From: Thermaurantimonas aggregans
GTDB lineage: Bacteria; Bacteroidota; Bacteroidia; Flavobacteriales; Schleiferiaceae
Assembly: GCF_003851885.1 (NCBI RefSeq)
Contig: NZ_BHZE01000001.1
Coordinates: forward strand, 124,001 to 188,000
Reading direction: 5' to 3'
Length of the DNA: 64,000 bases
Every line of letters starts with the position of its first letter. Within the stretch, counting starts at the first letter, position 1. The notes below the pieces were generated by a model. It saw nothing but the letters and a program-made list of their open reading frames with translations. It was not told the origin of the DNA and ran no database searches. Positions 2,511 through 36,853 of the stretch are shown piece by piece. Both the position numbers and the translations under genes were made by a program.

Positions 2511-3482
2511 ATGAAACGAATTGGAATTTTTACATCAGGAGGCGATGCTCCGGGCATGAATGCCTGCATACGGGCAGCTGTGCGCACTGCATTGGCCAAT
2601 GGGTTAGAGGTGTATGGTATTTACAGAGGCTATCTAGGAATGATCGAAGGCGACATCGTACCCTTGCAAAGCAGTGACGTGTCAAATATCATCCAGCGCG
2701 GAGGTACCATCCTGAAAACTGCTCGCAGCGATGAATTTCGTACCCCTGAAGGGCGCTCTAAAGCCGCTGAAAATCTCAAAAAATTTGGAATCGAAGGGCT
2801 AGTTTGCATTGGTGGAGACGGATCGTTTAAAGGAGCATCTGTACTATATGAAGAGCACGGCATCAAAACCATAGGTGCTCCCGGTACGATTGATAACGAT
2901 CTATATGGCACTGATTCGACCATCGGCTATGATACTGCGGTCAATACTGTGGTTGAAGCTGTGGACAAACTGCGCGATACTGCCGCTTCGCACAACCGTC
3001 TGTTTATAGTAGAAGTAATGGGGCGCGATGCCGGATTTATCGCCCTACGCTCAGGCATAGCCTGTGGTGCTGAAGCTATACTTGTGCCCGAAACCCCTAC
3101 TTATATAGATGGTCTGATTCAAAAGCTGCGCGAAGGCTGGTCGCGCAAGAAGCATTCATCCATCGTAATTGTGGCGGAGGGTGACGAAAGCGGGGGCGCC
3201 TATCAAGTAGCGGATGCGGTAAAAAAGAACTTTGACAAGTACGACGTGCGTGTGACCATACTTGGTCACATCCAGCGCGGTGGTAGTCCCTCAGCCTACG
3301 ACCGCGTATTGGCCAGCGAAATGGGATATGCTGCCGTAAAAGGGTTAATCTCTGGAAAATACAATGTAATGGTAGGACGTCAGGGAAGAGAAATCGTATA
3401 TGTTCCTTTTGAAAAGGCTATTAAGCACAACAAAGAGCTGAACAAGTATTTGCTGGAAATAGCTGAAACGCTCTCGCGATAA
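2511..3482 (+). CDS. pfkA: ATP-dependent 6-phosphofructokinase
   Basis: The 323-residue protein catalyses fructose-6-phosphate to fructose-1,6-bisphosphate, the committed step of glycolysis. The nucleotide loop GGDAPGMNA lies at 10-18, GGDGS at 101-105, the catalytic PGTIDND at 124-130 (D128 as base) and the substrate loop MGRDAG at about 170-175. Length and motif positions match bacterial allosteric PfkA of about 320 residues, and the Gly after GGDG is compatible with ATP rather than pyrophosphate use. It ends the short co-directional group begun at 1002. The next gene converges on it with 1 bp between stops. Confidence 0.96.
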   Translation: MKRIGIFTSGGDAPGMNACIRAAVRTALANGLEVYGIYRGYLGMIEGDIVPLQSSDVSNIIQRGGTILKTARSDEFRTPEGRSKAAENLKKFGIEGLVCIGGDGSFKGASVLYEEHGIKTIGAPGTIDNDLYGTDSTIGYDTAVNTVVEAVDKLRDTAASHNRLFIVEVMGRDAGFIALRSGIACGAEAILVPETPTYIDGLIQKLREGWSRKKHSSIVIVAEGDESGGAYQVADAVKKNFDKYDVRVTILGHIQRGGSPSAYDRVLASEMGYAAVKGLISGKYNVMVGRQGREIVYVPFEKAIKHNKELNKYLLEIAETLSR

Positions 3483-3483
3483 A

Positions 3484-4353
3484 TCAAAACAGCTGTACAG
3501 TAAGCCCTACAGAAAAACCTATGTGATTGAAAGGCAGACTAAAAGGTCTAGCTTTACTGGGTTCATTAGCAATTATTTCATCCTGATCGGTAATGCGGAT
3601 GTTTCGGTCGTACACCGTTTCGCGCTCGTAGCGGGCAAATTGATTTAATTGGCCTTGACCATTGACTTCGTAAAACACCAATTCAGACCTCCTCGGGCTA
3701 AAATTTGCGCCTAAAGCTCGTACCTCGGTAAAAAGAAAAAGCCGGTCATCGAGAGACCATTCGATGCCTAATGCCCCGGAAAGCCCTAAAGAGAATCGCC
3801 CGATGTAGTTGGTTTGCATTTCTATAAAATCGTAAAAATTACTGTTGTTGGGCAATAGAACCGAAGATTTTTCCTGAATTACACCTACAATAATAGGAAA
3901 CCCAACTCTGATGTAGGGTCTGGTTATATATTCCATCGGAAGCATAAAGGTAACTTCTGGCGTAAAAAGAAAAGCATTTGAAGTGAGCGTTCTGGGTGAT
4001 TCGAATGTAAAATCAAGCGTGTCAATTCGAGTTGTATACACATCTTTTACCGTAGAGGAACTGTTGAATTGGTAAGCCACATCCAAACCAAAGCGGAAAA
4101 TGTCATTAATCTGATAACCAAACCCAAAATGAGCAAAAGCTCCCGAGCCAGGAGAAAAGTAATTAACTTGTATATCGAGTGTAGAGTCTGTCAGCGTTCG
4201 ATTTTCCCAATTATTAAAAGGAATGGAGTAGGGTTGACTTAGCGTGTATGAGGCGCCACCTCTAATAAAAAAACCTTGTTGATAATAATTTTGAGAGAAG
4301 AGAGGAAGTGAAAAAATCAAAACAGCCGTGCTTAGCACTATACGGGTGTTCAT
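3484..4353 (-). CDS. Outer-membrane beta-barrel protein, function unknown
   Basis: The 289-residue product has a classical signal peptide (hydrophobic core through residue 20, cleavage near LFSQ). Alternating hydrophobic/aromatic strands follow, such as FGFGYQ, FRFGLDVAYQF and IGFSVGLTVQLF at the C-terminus. This ending in aromatic-x-hydrophobic-Phe is typical of an 8-12-stranded outer-membrane barrel (OmpW/PorT-like size). It has no adhesion or enzyme motif. It converges on pfkA. A substrate or role cannot be assigned. Confidence 0.75.
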   Translation of the reverse strand: MNTRIVLSTAVLIFSLPLFSQNYYQQGFFIRGGASYTLSQPYSIPFNNWENRTLTDSTLDIQVNYFSPGSGAFAHFGFGYQINDIFRFGLDVAYQFNSSSTVKDVYTTRIDTLDFTFESPRTLTSNAFLFTPEVTFMLPMEYITRPYIRVGFPIIVGVIQEKSSVLLPNNSNFYDFIEMQTNYIGRFSLGLSGALGIEWSLDDRLFLFTEVRALGANFSPRRSELVFYEVNGQGQLNQFARYERETVYDRNIRITDQDEIIANEPSKARPFSLPFNHIGFSVGLTVQLF

Positions 4354-26753: not shown

Positions 26754-27504
26754 ATCTAATTACCTCATAGCCGAGTTTTACTTCTATGTAATCGCTGTAG
26801 CCAAAAGGCCGTATGCGCACCTGAACTTCTAATTTTTTGTTGTTCAGTATTTTCTGTTTTTCGTCTATGTAGCAGCGCACTCCTGTATCGCTGGGCTTGT
26901 CGGGGTCGGCGCTTATGTTGCCGCGTGAGGTCATCTCGCGTACCAGCTCAGCCTCTACTTTAGCTTGCAGCGCTTTCACAATCATTGCCGGCAGGGTGCC
27001 CTCTTTTGTAAGGGGTATTTCTTCTGAAAGCTCTTGCAAGAGGGTGCGATGCACTACCCTCATGGCCTTATTAAATACTCTGGCGCGCTGTATCCTGCCG
27101 TAGTTTGTATGGCTTAAGAGCTGATCACTCATCCAGTACCATCCTTGCAGGCCTACGTGTCTGTATGGGAATATTATTTTATCACTAAATAAATGCTCAG
27201 CCTCAGGTAGTGATAGCTGGTTGGTATTTAATGCTTGTTCATCTTGTAGCATCAGTCTGATAGGCCCGTCTTTTACTCGCATAATGGAGCGCTGCACCGG
27301 TATGCGCGCTATGCGGCCTGCCAGATAGCCTAAGTTTATGTGGGTAGTAGTTCGGTTTATTTCCATAGTGGCTAGGCCTACAAATTCAGTCTGACGGTCT
27401 AAATAAAAACTTGTAGGCTCGAGCCGCAAAGCAGGCAGTATGGTCACCACCTCTGCCCTGCATACCACCGACCACCCTACCAATGTGCTCCTGCACAACA
27501 ACAT
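26752..27504 (-). pseudogene. Tail sheath protein (DUF2586-like), N-terminal half lost
   Basis: The open frame gives 250 residues, but only about residues 20-250 look like sheath. They include SDKIIFPYRHVGLQGWYWMSDQLL, then a NYGRIQRARVFNKAMR helix and RTLLQELSEEIPLTKEGTL, matching the C-terminal half of DUF2586 sheaths (usually about 400 residues, from memory). The first roughly 20 residues are the antisense of the MuF-like gene, so the frame was broken near 27440 and its start is accidental. A contractile tail cannot form from this. Confidence 0.75.
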
Positions 27505-28453
27505 CGCCCAATTTGCCGCTGCTAAAGTCTTCTCTACCCTCTCAAAAGCTCACACCCTTACCCCTGACCAACTAAAAGTACACCTCCAAAAACACTATAC
27601 CTACGCCAAGGTAGAATACAATACCATCAAAAAACGCCTGCGCACCCTACACCAATGGAATACCATGCAAGGCGAAAAACTCTTCCCAAACATCATCTGG
27701 CTGCCCAGCAGATCCGCCGAGCCCGACCCCACCCATAGGCGCTTCTGGAACCGCATCTGGCCTAAAGACGACCCCTTCTGGCAGTCGCACTTCCCTGGCA
27801 ATCGCTACGGCTGTAAATGCTCATGGGCATCTACTCACCAGCCCCCTACCGACAACTCTGACCTGCCACTGCCCAAAAAAATAGTCGGCCTCGACGAAAA
27901 CCCAGCCCTCACTCAGCGCATCTTCTCCCTCTCTCACCCATACTTCCTAAACACTCCACCACACCTGCTCAAGCTCGCCAGCCTTCACCTGCCCGATAAG
28001 CTCGCCTACATCAAATCTGCCGCTGATGGGCCCTCCATCTATACCCATTACCTCCACTACACCTCACATGAGTACCAAGCCAATCTGCTCATCGCTCAGC
28101 GCCTCGCTGCTCACTTCAATGAAGATGTCTACCTGCTTCCCACCATTTCAGCTAAAGAACCTCGCCTGCGTCAGCGCTTCTTCGCCCACAACCTACTCCA
28201 TAATCCTTCTGCCAACCCAGATGCTCGTATCGGAAATCAATTCTTCGAATTTAAAAAATCATCGGCTAAAAACCTCTCTAAAAATCTTCTCCAAGCCTTG
28301 CGCTCTTCCCCTTCCGTGGCAATCTATCTCACAGAATACCTGCCCTACAGCTCCCTCAGTACACTTATCCGCAGGTCTGTGCTCAGTCGCAAAATCCCTT
28401 ACCAAAAAATTTGCTTTATCTTCGACAATCAAATCCTTATCTTCACACCCTAA
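27440..28453 (+). CDS. MuF-like head morphogenesis protein with C-terminal BECR-type nuclease toxin domain; N-terminus truncated
   Basis: The 337-residue product runs on the + strand, opposite to its phage neighbours. Residues 15-134 are the end of a MuF domain (AKVEYNTIKKRL, D96-P-T-H99, DPFWQSHFPGN, CKC at 125-127). Residues 205-337 look like a CdiA-C-type tRNase of the BECR fold: H210-E-Y-Q-A-N then YLLPTI, NPDARIG at 259-265 and FEFKK (269-273), then a basic helix and the end FIFDNQILIF. MuF proteins with C-terminal polymorphic toxins are known from temperate phages. The usual N-terminal 150-200 residues are missing because of the rearrangement at about 27440. No immunity gene follows. 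Activity in this state is uncertain. Confidence 0.7.
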   Translation: MVTTSALHTTDHPTNVLLHNNIAQFAAAKVFSTLSKAHTLTPDQLKVHLQKHYTYAKVEYNTIKKRLRTLHQWNTMQGEKLFPNIIWLPSRSAEPDPTHRRFWNRIWPKDDPFWQSHFPGNRYGCKCSWASTHQPPTDNSDLPLPKKIVGLDENPALTQRIFSLSHPYFLNTPPHLLKLASLHLPDKLAYIKSAADGPSIYTHYLHYTSHEYQANLLIAQRLAAHFNEDVYLLPTISAKEPRLRQRFFAHNLLHNPSANPDARIGNQFFEFKKSSAKNLSKNLLQALRSSPSVAIYLTEYLPYSSLSTLIRRSVLSRKIPYQKICFIFDNQILIFTP

Positions 28454-32832: not shown

Positions 32833-33789
32833 TTAAATCATATTAAATTCTTCTTGGGTGATTTTGTCAAGATCTACCCCTGATGCTATTAGTGCTTTGA
32901 TGGTGGAGTCGGCCATGGCGTAGTTCCACCAGTGTGAGGCGGCCAGCTGTATTACTTTTTGGTTTTTGATGCCTTTAGCCTGGCAGAAGAAAGCAATATC
33001 CTCACCTTTAGGACTATCGATCTGCAGTACCTTTAGCCGGCGTACGAAGGTGGTAAATATGTTGTTGTCTTCTTTTATGGGTCTGAATTGCTCTAGGGTG
33101 GCAGTTGCCTGCTCGGCTGCTGGCAGTATCTGTAGGCCTGCCCACTGGGCCAGTTGCTTCTTTACCGAGCTGATGCCTACGATCAGTATGCCTAAGAGGC
33201 CTTCGGTGGCTGTATAGAGATTCTTGATTTGTTTCCAGATGGCCTGATTGAGTATTTCAGCCTCATCGATTATAAGCAAGGGCTTTTCACCGCTTATTTG
33301 CTCTACTTTTTCGATGATTTGCTCTAGCAGGGTAGTGCTGCCTACGCCCTCGCGCACCTGTATGCCCATTACACGGCATATCTCCAGTAGAAATTTATGC
33401 CAGGTATAGGTTTTAAATATCTTTATGTAGTACACGGCTGGCTCTTGGCTGGCAAAGCGCTTCATACATACGGTCTTACCGATGCCGGTATTGCCCACCA
33501 GCAGGCGTATATCGCTCTGCTGCTTGCATTTAGCTGCGATCTGCTGCATCACCTGGTATTGTCGCACAGGCACGAGGTTGTATTCGGCCATGTAGTCGGC
33601 CAGGCGCGCCATCATACTCTGTATCAGCGTATCGGCAAAGGCTCTTTTGCCGTTCAGCAGCTCGCTGATTACGCTCTCGCTACGCCCTGTGATTGATGCT
33701 AACTCATTGTTCTTGAGATTTTTTGACTCTTTTAGGGCCAGAAGCTTGTTTCTGAAGGCCTCTTGTAGAGGGCTAATTTCTGCTTTCAT
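32833..33789 (-). CDS. MuB-like ATP-dependent DNA-binding target-selection protein
   Basis: The 318-residue protein combines an N-terminal HTH (about 20-50, NNELASITGRSESVISELLN) with an AAA+ ATPase. Walker A is GNTGIGKT at 99-106 and Walker B LLIIDEAE at 171-178. The C-terminal part includes an Asn/Ile-rich helix. MuB polymerises on target DNA, activates MuA and confers target immunity (family knowledge). The order A then B with a 4-bp ATGA-type overlap is as in Mu. Confidence 0.88.
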   Translation of the reverse strand: MKAEISPLQEAFRNKLLALKESKNLKNNELASITGRSESVISELLNGKRAFADTLIQSMMARLADYMAEYNLVPVRQYQVMQQIAAKCKQQSDIRLLVGNTGIGKTVCMKRFASQEPAVYYIKIFKTYTWHKFLLEICRVMGIQVREGVGSTTLLEQIIEKVEQISGEKPLLIIDEAEILNQAIWKQIKNLYTATEGLLGILIVGISSVKKQLAQWAGLQILPAAEQATATLEQFRPIKEDNNIFTTFVRRLKVLQIDSPKGEDIAFFCQAKGIKNQKVIQLAASHWWNYAMADSTIKALIASGVDLDKITQEEFNMI

Positions 33790-35933
33790 AGGTCGTGTTT
33801 ATTTTGGATTGGGATGCGCACTTTTTTTATTTCGCCCGTTACAGGGTGCACATACTCTCTCTCCTCGTACTGCAGCTCTGTCTGCATCTGGTCGAGTAGT
33901 ATGGCATCTGTTTCGTCGCTTTTTTCGGCCATTTCGTACAAGAACAGTTCGCTCTTATCCAGCAAGGGCGCTATGCGCTTACGCCCTGTCATGGCTTGGC
34001 TCTTTAGGGCATTTAGCGTCGGGTTGCTGTTTAGCTCCTCTCGCAGCTCACTGACTTTTTTCAAAGCATTTTTTGCAATTTCTTTTTGCAGCAGCAGGTA
34101 GTTGTTCAGCTTGCTATCGCCTGGCATCATGGATATGCGCTCTTTTAATGGCCATATACCCAAAAAGGTATTGTCTTTATACACTACTGCAGGCTTGCCA
34201 TAGTCGAGTACTTGTACTCGTACTCTAGAAAGCTTGCCGCTTTGTAAGGGTATTTGTTCAAAGATTTTTGCAGCTTTGCTGCGCTGCTCTTCTGTTTCAA
34301 CCGGCGGAAAATAGGTGTATTCCACACCTCTGCTGCTTACAGTTACCCCCTTGGTAGTCAGCTGCACGTGGTGTGTAGTACCGTATTCGGCCAGGTCTGC
34401 ATAGCTGAGCTTGGCCGTTTCGCTTTCTAGCTCGTTCCACAGTTCGGTGGGTGTTTTGCCGCAGGGCTTGCCTTCTCGGCTTTCTATTACGTAATGGTTC
34501 CATTGCTCCATTACCTCAGTGCGAAGCCTCTCAGAAGCGATGGCGAAGTCTCTGGCACGTCGTTTTGCAGCTTCTAAGTACTTCTCACCAGGCTGGCTGC
34601 CGTCGGCCTGTGCCGTGCGGTTGCTGCCTGACCATGCTCCGCTGTATTTGTCTATCAGTCGGTTTTTCAGACCTATCAATAGCTCTACTACCTTAGCCCG
34701 GGCCAGCCCTACCTGGGTAGGCAGCACCCTGATGTCGTGCGCATCGCACCACTGCTTCACCCCATTGTAGCCAGGGCCTCTGTCTAGCTGCAGGTATAGC
34801 GGCTTGTAGCCACATTCCTTTATGGCATTCTTTAGGCAGCGTATCAGCACCTCGGCACGTTCATTAGCCCCTAAGGTCACCTGTACGTCGAGCAATCTAA
34901 AGGATGCATAGTCGTAAACACTTACTATGTGCGCGTACTGCCTTACCTTACCATTGTGGCGTACATACTCGTTTTGTGCCGTGCCATCTATACCCCATAT
35001 CGCATTTTTTCGGGTAGGGTAGCTGCGCTGCACCTCGGGCACCATGGTGTTCTTGTGGTACACCAGCCCGTGGCGCTCTATTTTAAGGGAGTTTTTCACG
35101 CTTTGTAGATACATGTAAACCGTCTGGTAGGTTGGGGGGGTGTACTCCCCGTCCTTTAGCCACCACCGGTTTTTTTTGCCGATTTCTAGCAGTTTTCTAT
35201 ATATATCAGCGATGCTAATTGCGATGGGATCAGCATAGAGGGCTTGGATTACCCTCTTCTGCTCATCGGTTAGCTTATTTCTGTTTTTATTATTTGACCT
35301 TTTGGGTTTTATGTAGTTGATATCCTCGCCTTGTCTTTCCTCTAGCTGATAGAGCCAATCTATCAGCCGGCGCCCTGTAGGCATCTTTATTGAAAAAAAT
35401 TCTCTAGGCATCAGCTCAATGGCCTCTGCAAGGTTTGCTACCAGGGAGCGCTTGTATCGCTTTGCTTCGCGCTCACTTCGCGCAATATTTTGTATGCGCT
35501 TAAACCTGGCATGTACAAACTCTGAAAGGGCGCACAATTTGGCATAGCCTATTATGCGATGCCTTCCCAGCGAGTGATTTTCAACATAATATGTCGTATA
35601 TCGAGGGTAGTTTTTAATGATGTACTCCTCTAGCTCATTGGTAATGTAGCCGGCATTGATGCGTAGATGCTCAGCCGTCATTACCACGGCCGCATCTACT
35701 AGCTGCTCATAACCTGCATCAGTGTTTTGCAGGCTATTCATGTGCTCACTTTTTAGAGCACTAATCTTTTCCCTTATTTTCAGCTGGTACCTTTCAGGCA
35801 AGCTATCAAGCAGAATAAGGGTCTTTTTATTCGTGTCTTTCACCATCACAGCCTGCCCTCTTTGTTTTAATTTTCGGGCAGTACTGCTTTTGAACCCTAG
35901 TAATTGCCAATGATCAATACTTATTGCGTGCAT
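33786..35933 (-). CDS. MuA-like DDE transposase
   Basis: The 715-residue protein shows an N-terminal DNA-binding region (about 1-70, MHAISIDHWQLLGFKSSTAR and a MuA Ibeta/gamma-like helical segment 100-250). The RNase-H-like catalytic core has D316 (WGIDGT), D384 (YLQLDRGPGY) and E417 (KVVELL). D-D spacing is 68, close to Mu (67); D-E spacing is 33, shorter than in Mu (56). A Mu-C-type beta domain (about 470-570, SRGVEYTYFPP) and a coiled C-terminus that would contact MuB follow. The gene looks intact, so the element could still move if its ends are functional. Confidence 0.92.
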   Translation of the reverse strand: MHAISIDHWQLLGFKSSTARKLKQRGQAVMVKDTNKKTLILLDSLPERYQLKIREKISALKSEHMNSLQNTDAGYEQLVDAAVVMTAEHLRINAGYITNELEEYIIKNYPRYTTYYVENHSLGRHRIIGYAKLCALSEFVHARFKRIQNIARSEREAKRYKRSLVANLAEAIELMPREFFSIKMPTGRRLIDWLYQLEERQGEDINYIKPKRSNNKNRNKLTDEQKRVIQALYADPIAISIADIYRKLLEIGKKNRWWLKDGEYTPPTYQTVYMYLQSVKNSLKIERHGLVYHKNTMVPEVQRSYPTRKNAIWGIDGTAQNEYVRHNGKVRQYAHIVSVYDYASFRLLDVQVTLGANERAEVLIRCLKNAIKECGYKPLYLQLDRGPGYNGVKQWCDAHDIRVLPTQVGLARAKVVELLIGLKNRLIDKYSGAWSGSNRTAQADGSQPGEKYLEAAKRRARDFAIASERLRTEVMEQWNHYVIESREGKPCGKTPTELWNELESETAKLSYADLAEYGTTHHVQLTTKGVTVSSRGVEYTYFPPVETEEQRSKAAKIFEQIPLQSGKLSRVRVQVLDYGKPAVVYKDNTFLGIWPLKERISMMPGDSKLNNYLLLQKEIAKNALKKVSELREELNSNPTLNALKSQAMTGRKRIAPLLDKSELFLYEMAEKSDETDAILLDQMQTELQYEEREYVHPVTGEIKKVRIPIQNKHDL

Positions 35934-35934
35934 T

Positions 35935-36144
35935 TCACACCTTTAAAGCTTTTTTAATTTCATTATACTTAAGCCTGTAGTCGCGAAGCACTTCCTCTTC
36001 TATTGGGCTGTTAAACTCTCCCCGCAGTATGCAGTAGATGGTGTTTTTCGACACTTTGTATTTGGCTGCAAGCCATTTTACCACCTCTGTTTTTATTCGG
36101 TCGCGCTTTGCTACTGTGGGTTTCAGTACATTTGTCGATTGCAT
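35935..36144 (-). CDS. Ner-like HTH regulator
   Basis: I start at the ATG at 36144 (69 residues); an in-frame ATG at 36180 would lie upstream of the likely transcript start. The product has an HTH region (DRIKTEVVKWLAAKYKVSKN, then TIYCILRGEFNSP). It is the first gene of the early operon, directly before the transposase gene (1-bp gap), as ner in Mu. It probably represses the early and/or repressor promoter at the intergenic palindrome. Confidence 0.6.
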   Translation of the reverse strand: MQSTNVLKPTVAKRDRIKTEVVKWLAAKYKVSKNTIYCILRGEFNSPIEEEVLRDYRLKYNEIKKALKV

Positions 36145-36168
36145 GCTGCTGTTTCTTTTAGAACAGCG

Positions 36169-36189
36169 CAAATATTTCAAACATATTTG
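36169..36189. promoter_or_regulatory. Palindromic operator with divergent -7 boxes between repressor and ner-like gene
   Basis: CAAATAT (36169-36175), 7-nt spacer, ATATTTG (36183-36189) form a perfect inverted repeat. Each arm contains ATATTTG, close to TAnnTTTG, pointing outward: the + arm ends 4 bases before the repressor ATG, and the - arm leads toward the ner-like ATG at 36144. One protein bound across the repeat would cover both -7 boxes. Confidence 0.6.
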
Positions 36190-36193
36190 ATAT

Positions 36194-36853
36194 ATGCAAA
36201 CAAATTTGAATCTGCCAGATACATTTTTTTCTCGGATATTAAAAATAATGGAATACTATAAATACAAGTCATTAAATGAATTTGCTATCAAAGGTTTAAA
36301 GTACAAATCGCCGGAAAAGCTTAATCGATTAAAAGATCCAAAAAACAAACCTTCTGTAGAAATACTAATTGATATTTCAAATATGTTTGATATTAATATT
36401 GATTGGCTTCTGACAGGTCGTGGACCTATGCTGCGCGATCAAGTCCCCCAGGCGGTACCCTCACCCACAGGCGTGCCACTCATACCGGCTGAGGCCTTAG
36501 CCGGCTATGGCGCAGGTGAGCTGGTCATTACCGAGCACATGATCGAGCATAGGTATGTGATACCTGAGTTTCGATCAGCCACCTGCATCATACGCGTCAA
36601 GGGCGATAGCATGTCACCCACCTATCTGCCTGGCGATATGATTGCTATTAAAAAAATAGATGCTAAAACATTCATACAGTGGAATAAACCTCATGTACTT
36701 GATACAGTTCAGGGAATTTTAATTAAGCGAGTTTTACAAAGTGAATCTGGCTACATTTTAAGATCCGACAACCCATCGTACCCTGATATTACTGTACCTA
36801 GTAAGGAAGTTTATAATATGTATTTAATACTTGGATTAATACGTTTTGAATAG
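36194..36853 (+). CDS. LexA/CI-type prophage repressor with S24 peptidase domain
   Basis: The 219-residue protein has an N-terminal HTH-like region (about 10-75, FDINIDWLLTGRGPM as the C-terminal helix hallmark) and a C-terminal S24 self-cleavage domain. Catalytic Ser139 (GDSMSP) and Lys178 (ILIKRV) are present, with an Ala-Gly cleavage site A103-G104 (ALAGYG). Cleavage is stimulated by RecA filaments in this family, so the prophage would be SOS-inducible (inference). It faces the ner-like gene with 49 bp between ATGs. The -7 arm of the palindrome ends 4 bases before the ATG, so the mRNA is likely leaderless. Confidence 0.85.
   Translation: MQTNLNLPDTFFSRILKIMEYYKYKSLNEFAIKGLKYKSPEKLNRLKDPKNKPSVEILIDISNMFDINIDWLLTGRGPMLRDQVPQAVPSPTGVPLIPAEALAGYGAGELVITEHMIEHRYVIPEFRSATCIIRVKGDSMSPTYLPGDMIAIKKIDAKTFIQWNKPHVLDTVQGILIKRVLQSESGYILRSDNPSYPDITVPSKEVYNMYLILGLIRFE

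Follow-up and report, generated by a model that had tools for sequence, protein, structure and literature searches.

The window analysed here is a 64,000-nucleotide stretch within contig 1 (NZ_BHZE01000001.1) of the 2.67-Mb genome of Thermaurantimonas aggregans (Flavobacteriales), and the element under study is the control region near position 36,190 of a Mu-like prophage, from which a repressor gene and a transposition operon diverge. The original prediction of a lysogeny switch at this place was borne out for the prophage by the presence of an S24 repressor, a divergent small gene and a transposase. The genes on either side of the control region are the following:

36194–36853, plus strand: repressor P0001, 219 amino acids, with helix-turn-helix (HTH) and S24 peptidase domains (Pfam PF00717, E 2.3e-12; phrog_4 transcriptional repressor, 4.7e-26)
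35935–36144, minus strand: small protein P0002, 69 amino acids, in the position of Ner
33786–35933, minus strand: MuA-like transposase, 715 amino acids (phrog_310 transposase, E 2.8e-37)
32833–33789, minus strand: MuB-like ATPase (phrog_296 DNA transposition protein, E 2.6e-29; AAA_22)

The HTH of the repressor was assigned through similarity to phrog_4 and phrog_8, and the cleavage site A103-G104 and the S139/K178 dyad are invariant among four relatives (set A4). The protein has the HTH, S24 domain, cleavage site and Ser-Lys dyad of an S24/CI-type repressor, and the MuA- and MuB-type genes in the operon divergent from it place the prophage among the Mu-like elements. P0002 gave no significant match in family searches. 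Its structure is predicted as a three-helix model (mean predicted local distance difference test score, pLDDT, 83) that has no match in the PDB at E<=0.001, and no similarity was found between P0002 and the minus-gene proteins of related phages. P0002 was rejected as a Ner homologue on both sequence and fold, and is Ner-like in position only.

Predicted operators at the start of the repressor gene and within it

The repeated elements of the control region and the repressor gene are listed below, the operators being predicted.

36169–36189, no strand: palindrome CAAATAT-N7-ATATTTG, with its left arm at 36169–36175 and its right arm at 36183–36189, followed by ATAT and the repressor ATG at 36194
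36177–36190, no strand: predicted operator O1, TCAAACATATTTGA
36196–36209, no strand: predicted operator O2, GCAAACAAATTTGA, 19 bp past O1 and over repressor codons 1–5 (MQTNL)
36377–36390, no strand: predicted operator O3, TCAAATATGTTTGA, the reverse complement of O1, within the repressor gene and exactly 200 bp from O1

The N7 palindrome and its 4-nt gap to the repressor ATG were found as first described, and the sequence has its sole exact match within the 64 kb at this place; with two mismatches allowed, 0.57 matches are expected in shuffles. The window contains 107 perfect 7-bp dyads with a gap of 0–12, and such a dyad is present in 1350 of 20000 shuffles of 36145–36215, so that these dyads are moderately rare here and the palindrome is not very improbable. 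Its exact form occurs in 5 of 129 loci, every one a copy of the window, and for this reason it is probably not the operator that it had been taken for. Conservation and repetition point to TCAAACATATTTGA, which merely overlaps the palindrome. This sequence lies at 36177 and, inverted, at 36377 as part of a 22-nt repeat of 91% identity with a spacing of exactly 200, and is a stronger signal than the N7 dyad. The pattern TCAAAYATRTTTGA occurs at three places in the whole genome, two of which are O1 and O3, and a reversed control pattern occurs at none.

The operators were compared across 20 loci that were chosen by hand and in which the O1 positions were set by hand. This set leaves out L057 (a near copy of L056), L141 (a near copy of L138) and L136, together with those of L144–L163 and L168 that lack an operator of this type. 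A site homologous to O1 is present in 20/20 loci with 0–2 mismatches to WCAAAYAWRTTTGA. At O1+19, a site with at most one mismatch is found in 13 of the 20, the remaining seven having 2–7 mismatches. An O3-like site (at most two mismatches) lies 197–202 bp past O1 in 15 of the 20, a distance near 19 helical turns of 10.5 bp. Relative to the ATG, the window operators are at -17 (O1), +2 (O2) and +183 (O3).

The intragenic site O3 requires separate attention, as it is read as the codons S/A-N-K/M/E-F and coding alone could yield it. Under such an explanation O1 and O2 would be real operators and O3 a by-product of a conserved protein motif, S/A-N-K/M-F-D/E, whose codons O3 matches exactly. The window's own O3 is compatible with this, since its synonymous test falls short of significance (P about 0.30) and the codons explain the site. 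The third genomic occurrence of TCAAAYATRTTTGA, at G000:C9:54360 (L052 4361), also shows that coding alone can produce the 14-mer: it lies inside an unrelated TonB-receptor-like open reading frame (ORF) reading SNMFD. The joint tests argue the other way. Shuffling of synonymous codons within genes reached the joint O3 score of five loci in 0 of 20000 trials, and that of 15 loci in 0 of 5000 (observed 258.5, maximum 194.2), although these tests ignore shared descent. Across the five loci, 29 codon columns have a conserved residue; only four of these keep to a single codon, of which three fall within O3 and the fourth lies two codons ahead of it. Furthermore, in the Flavobacterium clade without O3 the residues themselves are variable. 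O3 is the joint top leave-one-out position weight matrix (PWM) site within the 64 kb, and with a PWM built without O3 sites it ranks first or joint first in four of five loci and third in L054. A mere coding origin of O3 is accordingly judged unlikely. Repressor binding is probable at two sites next to the beginning of the repressor gene and at a third some 200 bases into it, and this predicted arrangement of three sites is common to related viruses.

In L137–L139, two additional operator-like sites were seen. Counted from the repressor start, one is at about -184, towards the minus gene and 167 bp away from O1; the other is at about +24, at codon 9 (TCAAACTTCTTTGA).

Promoter boxes and the proposed mechanism

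With TAnnTTTG taken as the -7 box, the following candidate boxes and the repeat between them bear on the direction of transcription:

36182–36189, plus strand: CATATTTG, the right half of O1, originally read as the repressor box; its spacing would put the start on the A of the ATG, but it has C at -12
36169–36176, minus strand: AATATTTG, probable -7 box of the early (lytic) promoter, with a predicted start near 36164 and a 20-nt leader; homologous in position to TATATTTG of the relatives, one base off
36178–36185, minus strand: alternative early -7 box TATGTTTG within O1, an exact TAnnTTTG
36127–36134, plus strand: candidate repressor -7 box TACATTTG, an exact TAHHTTTG within the first codons of P0002; start predicted near 36139 with a 55-nt leader
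36148–36167, no strand: inverted repeat GCTGTT-N8-AACAGC between the facing boxes, a candidate P0002 site or leader hairpin

According to the original prediction, the two promoters stand back to back, each arm of the N7 palindrome supplies one -7 box, and the repressor mRNA starts at or next to the ATG. Each arm does match seven of the eight positions of TAnnTTTG, but both miss the same base, the T at -12 (CATATTTG on the plus strand and AATATTTG on the minus strand). The weight of this base was assessed in 1.2 Mb of the host with 895 ORFs, of which 488 have a gap of at least 60 nt, by counting boxes 10–40 nt before start codons. TAHHTTTG was found 108 times in sense against 6 in antisense orientation. 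Neither C nor A at -12 is enriched: CAHHTTTG gave 8 sense and 4 antisense boxes, with 8.0 expected from far upstream and no clear enrichment, and AAHHTTTG, the class of the window minus box, gave 15 versus 17. TAHGTTTG, the class of the alternative early box TATGTTTG, is moderately enriched (9 versus 2), and TAHHTTCG was counted 15 versus 2. The last type may be a true -7 variant. A conserved plus-strand TAYATTCG lies at -104/-105 of the regulator in all seven of the loci L055–L060 and L126.

No spacing peak of a -33 TTTG was found upstream of the host genes, and a TTTG-N19/20 spacing seen by eye was discarded as evidence on this ground. The same is reported for Flavobacterium johnsoniae (PMC6847099).

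A leaderless repressor is favored by the placement of the box G at -5 (PMC6847099), by which CATATTTG sets +1 exactly on the ATG, and by a small leaderless class in the host, with 8 TAHHTTTG boxes at spacer 4–7 among the 488 upstream regions. Leaderless genes exist in the phylum but are few, with about 3.7% of 5' untranslated regions shorter than 10 nt reported for B. thetaiotaomicron (PMC7366714) and 5.5% for F. psychrophilum (PMC9723704). The comparison with relatives points elsewhere. No exact plus box lies 0–9 nt before the repressor start in any of 35 loci, a count that omits L145 (start codon inside the gene), L141, the chromosomal regulators L055–L060 and L126. In the five relatives that share the O1-ATG spacing and geometry of the window, the 8-mer at the place of the right arm is CAAGTTTG, and they have an exact plus box 39 nt before the repressor start and a minus box adjoining O1; the exact plus box of the window lies 59 nt before. 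Given that CATATTTG lacks the T at -12 of a consensus box with its G 4–5 nt before the start codon, a leaderless repressor is unlikely. With O2 in codons 1–5, the operator spacing of 19 bp already fixes the 4-nt gap to the ATG. The right arm appears to be half of an operator, whose likeness to a -7 box naturally invites misreading. The left arm remains plausible as a promoter element, as relatives have the exact TATATTTG there. As a whole, the back-to-back, leaderless scheme is considered quite improbable.

The exact boxes face each other instead. In 16 of the 35 loci an exact plus box faces an exact minus box 12–40 nt away (G to G, mostly 15–17), whereas shuffled sequences averaged 0.06 such loci and never exceeded 1. 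In the loci with facing boxes the minus box adjoins O1, and the exact minus-strand TATATTTG is found in this position in L054, L127, L137–L140, L142 and L165. In the window, the exact plus box TACATTTG faces AATATTTG (36176–36169) at 35 nt, G to G. Because an exact plus box faces the minus box in relatives and in the window, the layout appears to be face-to-face, like that of P2/186, and the repressor transcript appears to have a leader.

The sequence itself displays the repeated and conserved sites with their spacings and, in relatives, exact boxes that face each other; the account of binding, transcription starts, loop or roadblock, and induction given here is built on them by inference. Dimers of the S24 repressor would bind CAAA-N4-TTTG operators. 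From the predicted early start at 36164, O1 would occupy about -13 to -26 and O2 about -32 to -45, upstream of the early -7 box, and repressor on these sites would exclude RNA polymerase and keep the minus-strand transposition operon off. The repressor promoter would lie further upstream and be aimed at the early promoter, with a leader of about 55 nt crossing O1. As O1 is at +39 to +52 from the predicted repressor start, bound repressor could act as a roadblock and provide autoregulation. Repressor at O3, 200 bp (19 helical turns) downstream, may interact with that at O1/O2 through a loop or act as a roadblock itself, which would tighten repression and limit repressor synthesis. DNA damage would be expected to trigger self-cleavage of the repressor and release the switch. 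The earlier suggestion that one protein acts on both promoters thus survives, although the proposed mode changes to occlusion of the early promoter combined with a roadblock on the repressor leader.

This model, a three-operator Mu-like lysogeny switch with face-to-face promoters and an O3 interaction, is given a probability of roughly 0.62. Besides the coding explanation available for the window's own O3, several observations weigh against it. O2 is weak in several of the 20 chosen loci, and O3 is absent in 5 of the 20, all of one clade of chromosomal Flavobacterium regulators. The minus box of the window is not an exact match and sits one base out of place, and its spacing of 35 to the plus box exceeds the 15–17 of most relatives, so that the window is a weak example and is not among the 16 loci; 19 of the 35 loci lack an exact facing pair.

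Under a further reading, P0002 would bind either the N7 palindrome or the 36148–36167 inverted repeat and repress the repressor promoter in the lytic phase. The location of these elements between and over the promoters is suitable, and L131 (11400–11560), like the equivalent regions of L130 and L134, has an inverted repeat of the TTTGCGT...ACGCAAA type between its facing -7 boxes that is a candidate site for the small minus-strand protein. Nevertheless, the N7 dyad is unconserved and P0002 has no significant DNA-binding assignment and no counterpart among the minus-gene proteins of the phages, and this role for P0002 is very doubtful.

Related loci, known systems and the prophage

Scanning genomes with a repressor profile provided eight loci, and a search of 299 genomes of the genus Flavobacterium added two further informative ones, L126 and L127. 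All have an O1-like site and most have a second site 19 bp on. A DNA scan of IMG/VR for the 19-bp site pair, made blind to the proteins, matched six contigs. Four of these are Mu-like phages of the same layout, which share the MQTNL repressor start with the window and place O1 at -17, O2 at +2 and another site at +180 relative to the ATG; the other two, L133 and L135, are unrelated and were rejected as not carrying this switch. In 296 genomes from a single family, a profile search identified 28 loci in 27 genomes, among which L141, L142, L143 and L164–L167 share the operator type. In the set of 35, loci found more than once were counted once (L137=L132, L138=L134, L139=L130, L140=L131). Loci of Persicobacter, Chitinophagaceae, Flavobacterium and Weeksellaceae type also contain the 19-bp pair together with a site near O1+200. 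The repressor had no relatives when searched against viral contigs alone, and a phylum-wide profile search gave 3 of 395 genomes and no new locus.

The transposases of phages with the same layout are 21% identical over the aligned part, and no closer relatives of the transposase were found in viral contigs, INPHARED or 60 relatives (own genome aside). A transposase search of 395 genomes of the class identified seven distant loci with 16–19% identity; by eye, the control regions of three of them (L011, L013 and L014) share only the minus-strand box. Taken together, the DNA-binding domain, the 19-bp pair over the early promoter, the facing boxes and the intragenic O3 at 19 turns might make up a modular cassette for immunity in temperate phages of the Bacteroidota and in some chromosomal regulators, mobile between phages with transposases about 21% identical, a proposal that is put forward tentatively. 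If it holds, one gene stretch encodes a protein and its binding site alike. The operator suggests a dual-coding constraint in the repressor gene and is specific enough to spot these switches from DNA alone, and its sites are direct targets for footprinting.

A like layout with another operator type was observed in Elizabethkingia phage TCUEAP3 (L136, OK632026.1), where ACAGAATATTCTGA lies beside an exact minus TATATTTG at about 3440–3570. Geometry seems to be kept there while specificity changes. Literature searches on this phage or on Mu PcM/Ner returned nothing useful.

Phage lambda OR/OL resembles the proposed switch in its repressor-mediated looping, which is only proposed here, and differs in its back-to-back promoters with shared operators and its 2.3-kb loop. 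The lambda cI transcript from PRM is leaderless. In P2/186, the lytic promoter faces the lysogenic one and is covered by the primary repressor operators (PMC7498355), just as the early promoter is predicted to be by O1/O2 here. The window differs in its Mu-like transposition genes, its Bacteroidota -7 boxes only, its S24 repressor and the predicted operator inside the repressor gene. Box spacing, G to G, is 15–17 or 32–37 bp in the relatives and 35 in the window, compared with 40–60 bp between the promoters of P2-like phages (PMC7498355). The Bacteroides transposable Hankyphage is also Mu-like and keeps its lysogeny by means of RepCHP, a CI-like repressor located at one end of the genome (PMC12135933). 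The non-canonical LexA proteins of Bacteroidota likewise combine a CI-type HTH with a self-cleaving S24 domain and bind short palindromes upstream of their own gene, but are chromosomal SOS regulators (PMC8565304). The Rco switch of pLS20 is similar in that its promoters overlap, it is autoregulated and two of its operators are joined by a short loop, autoregulation and looping being proposed here, but it belongs to a Gram-positive plasmid and its operators are 75 bp apart (PMC4207663).

Intragenic operators, looping and face-to-face promoters are each known already. Their combination across Bacteroidota Mu-like phages was not found in literature searches, nor were any operators of Bacteroidota phages, a search for intragenic phage operators included, and such switches are little described.

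As read from the window, the Mu-like prophage extends from about 18.2 to 37.15 kb (about 19 kb) and splits a single host gene, with one piece between 17911 and about 18190 and the other between about 37150 and 39224. Its products include the MuA-like transposase, the MuB-like ATPase, DnaB, DUF3164 and tail proteins. Neither a head gene nor a terminase was found among the subset of ORFs scanned, and the prophage may be defective or tail-only. Amid the tail genes, a 337-amino-acid ORF (27440–28453, plus strand) resembles by eye a MuF-type protein with a variable C-terminal part.
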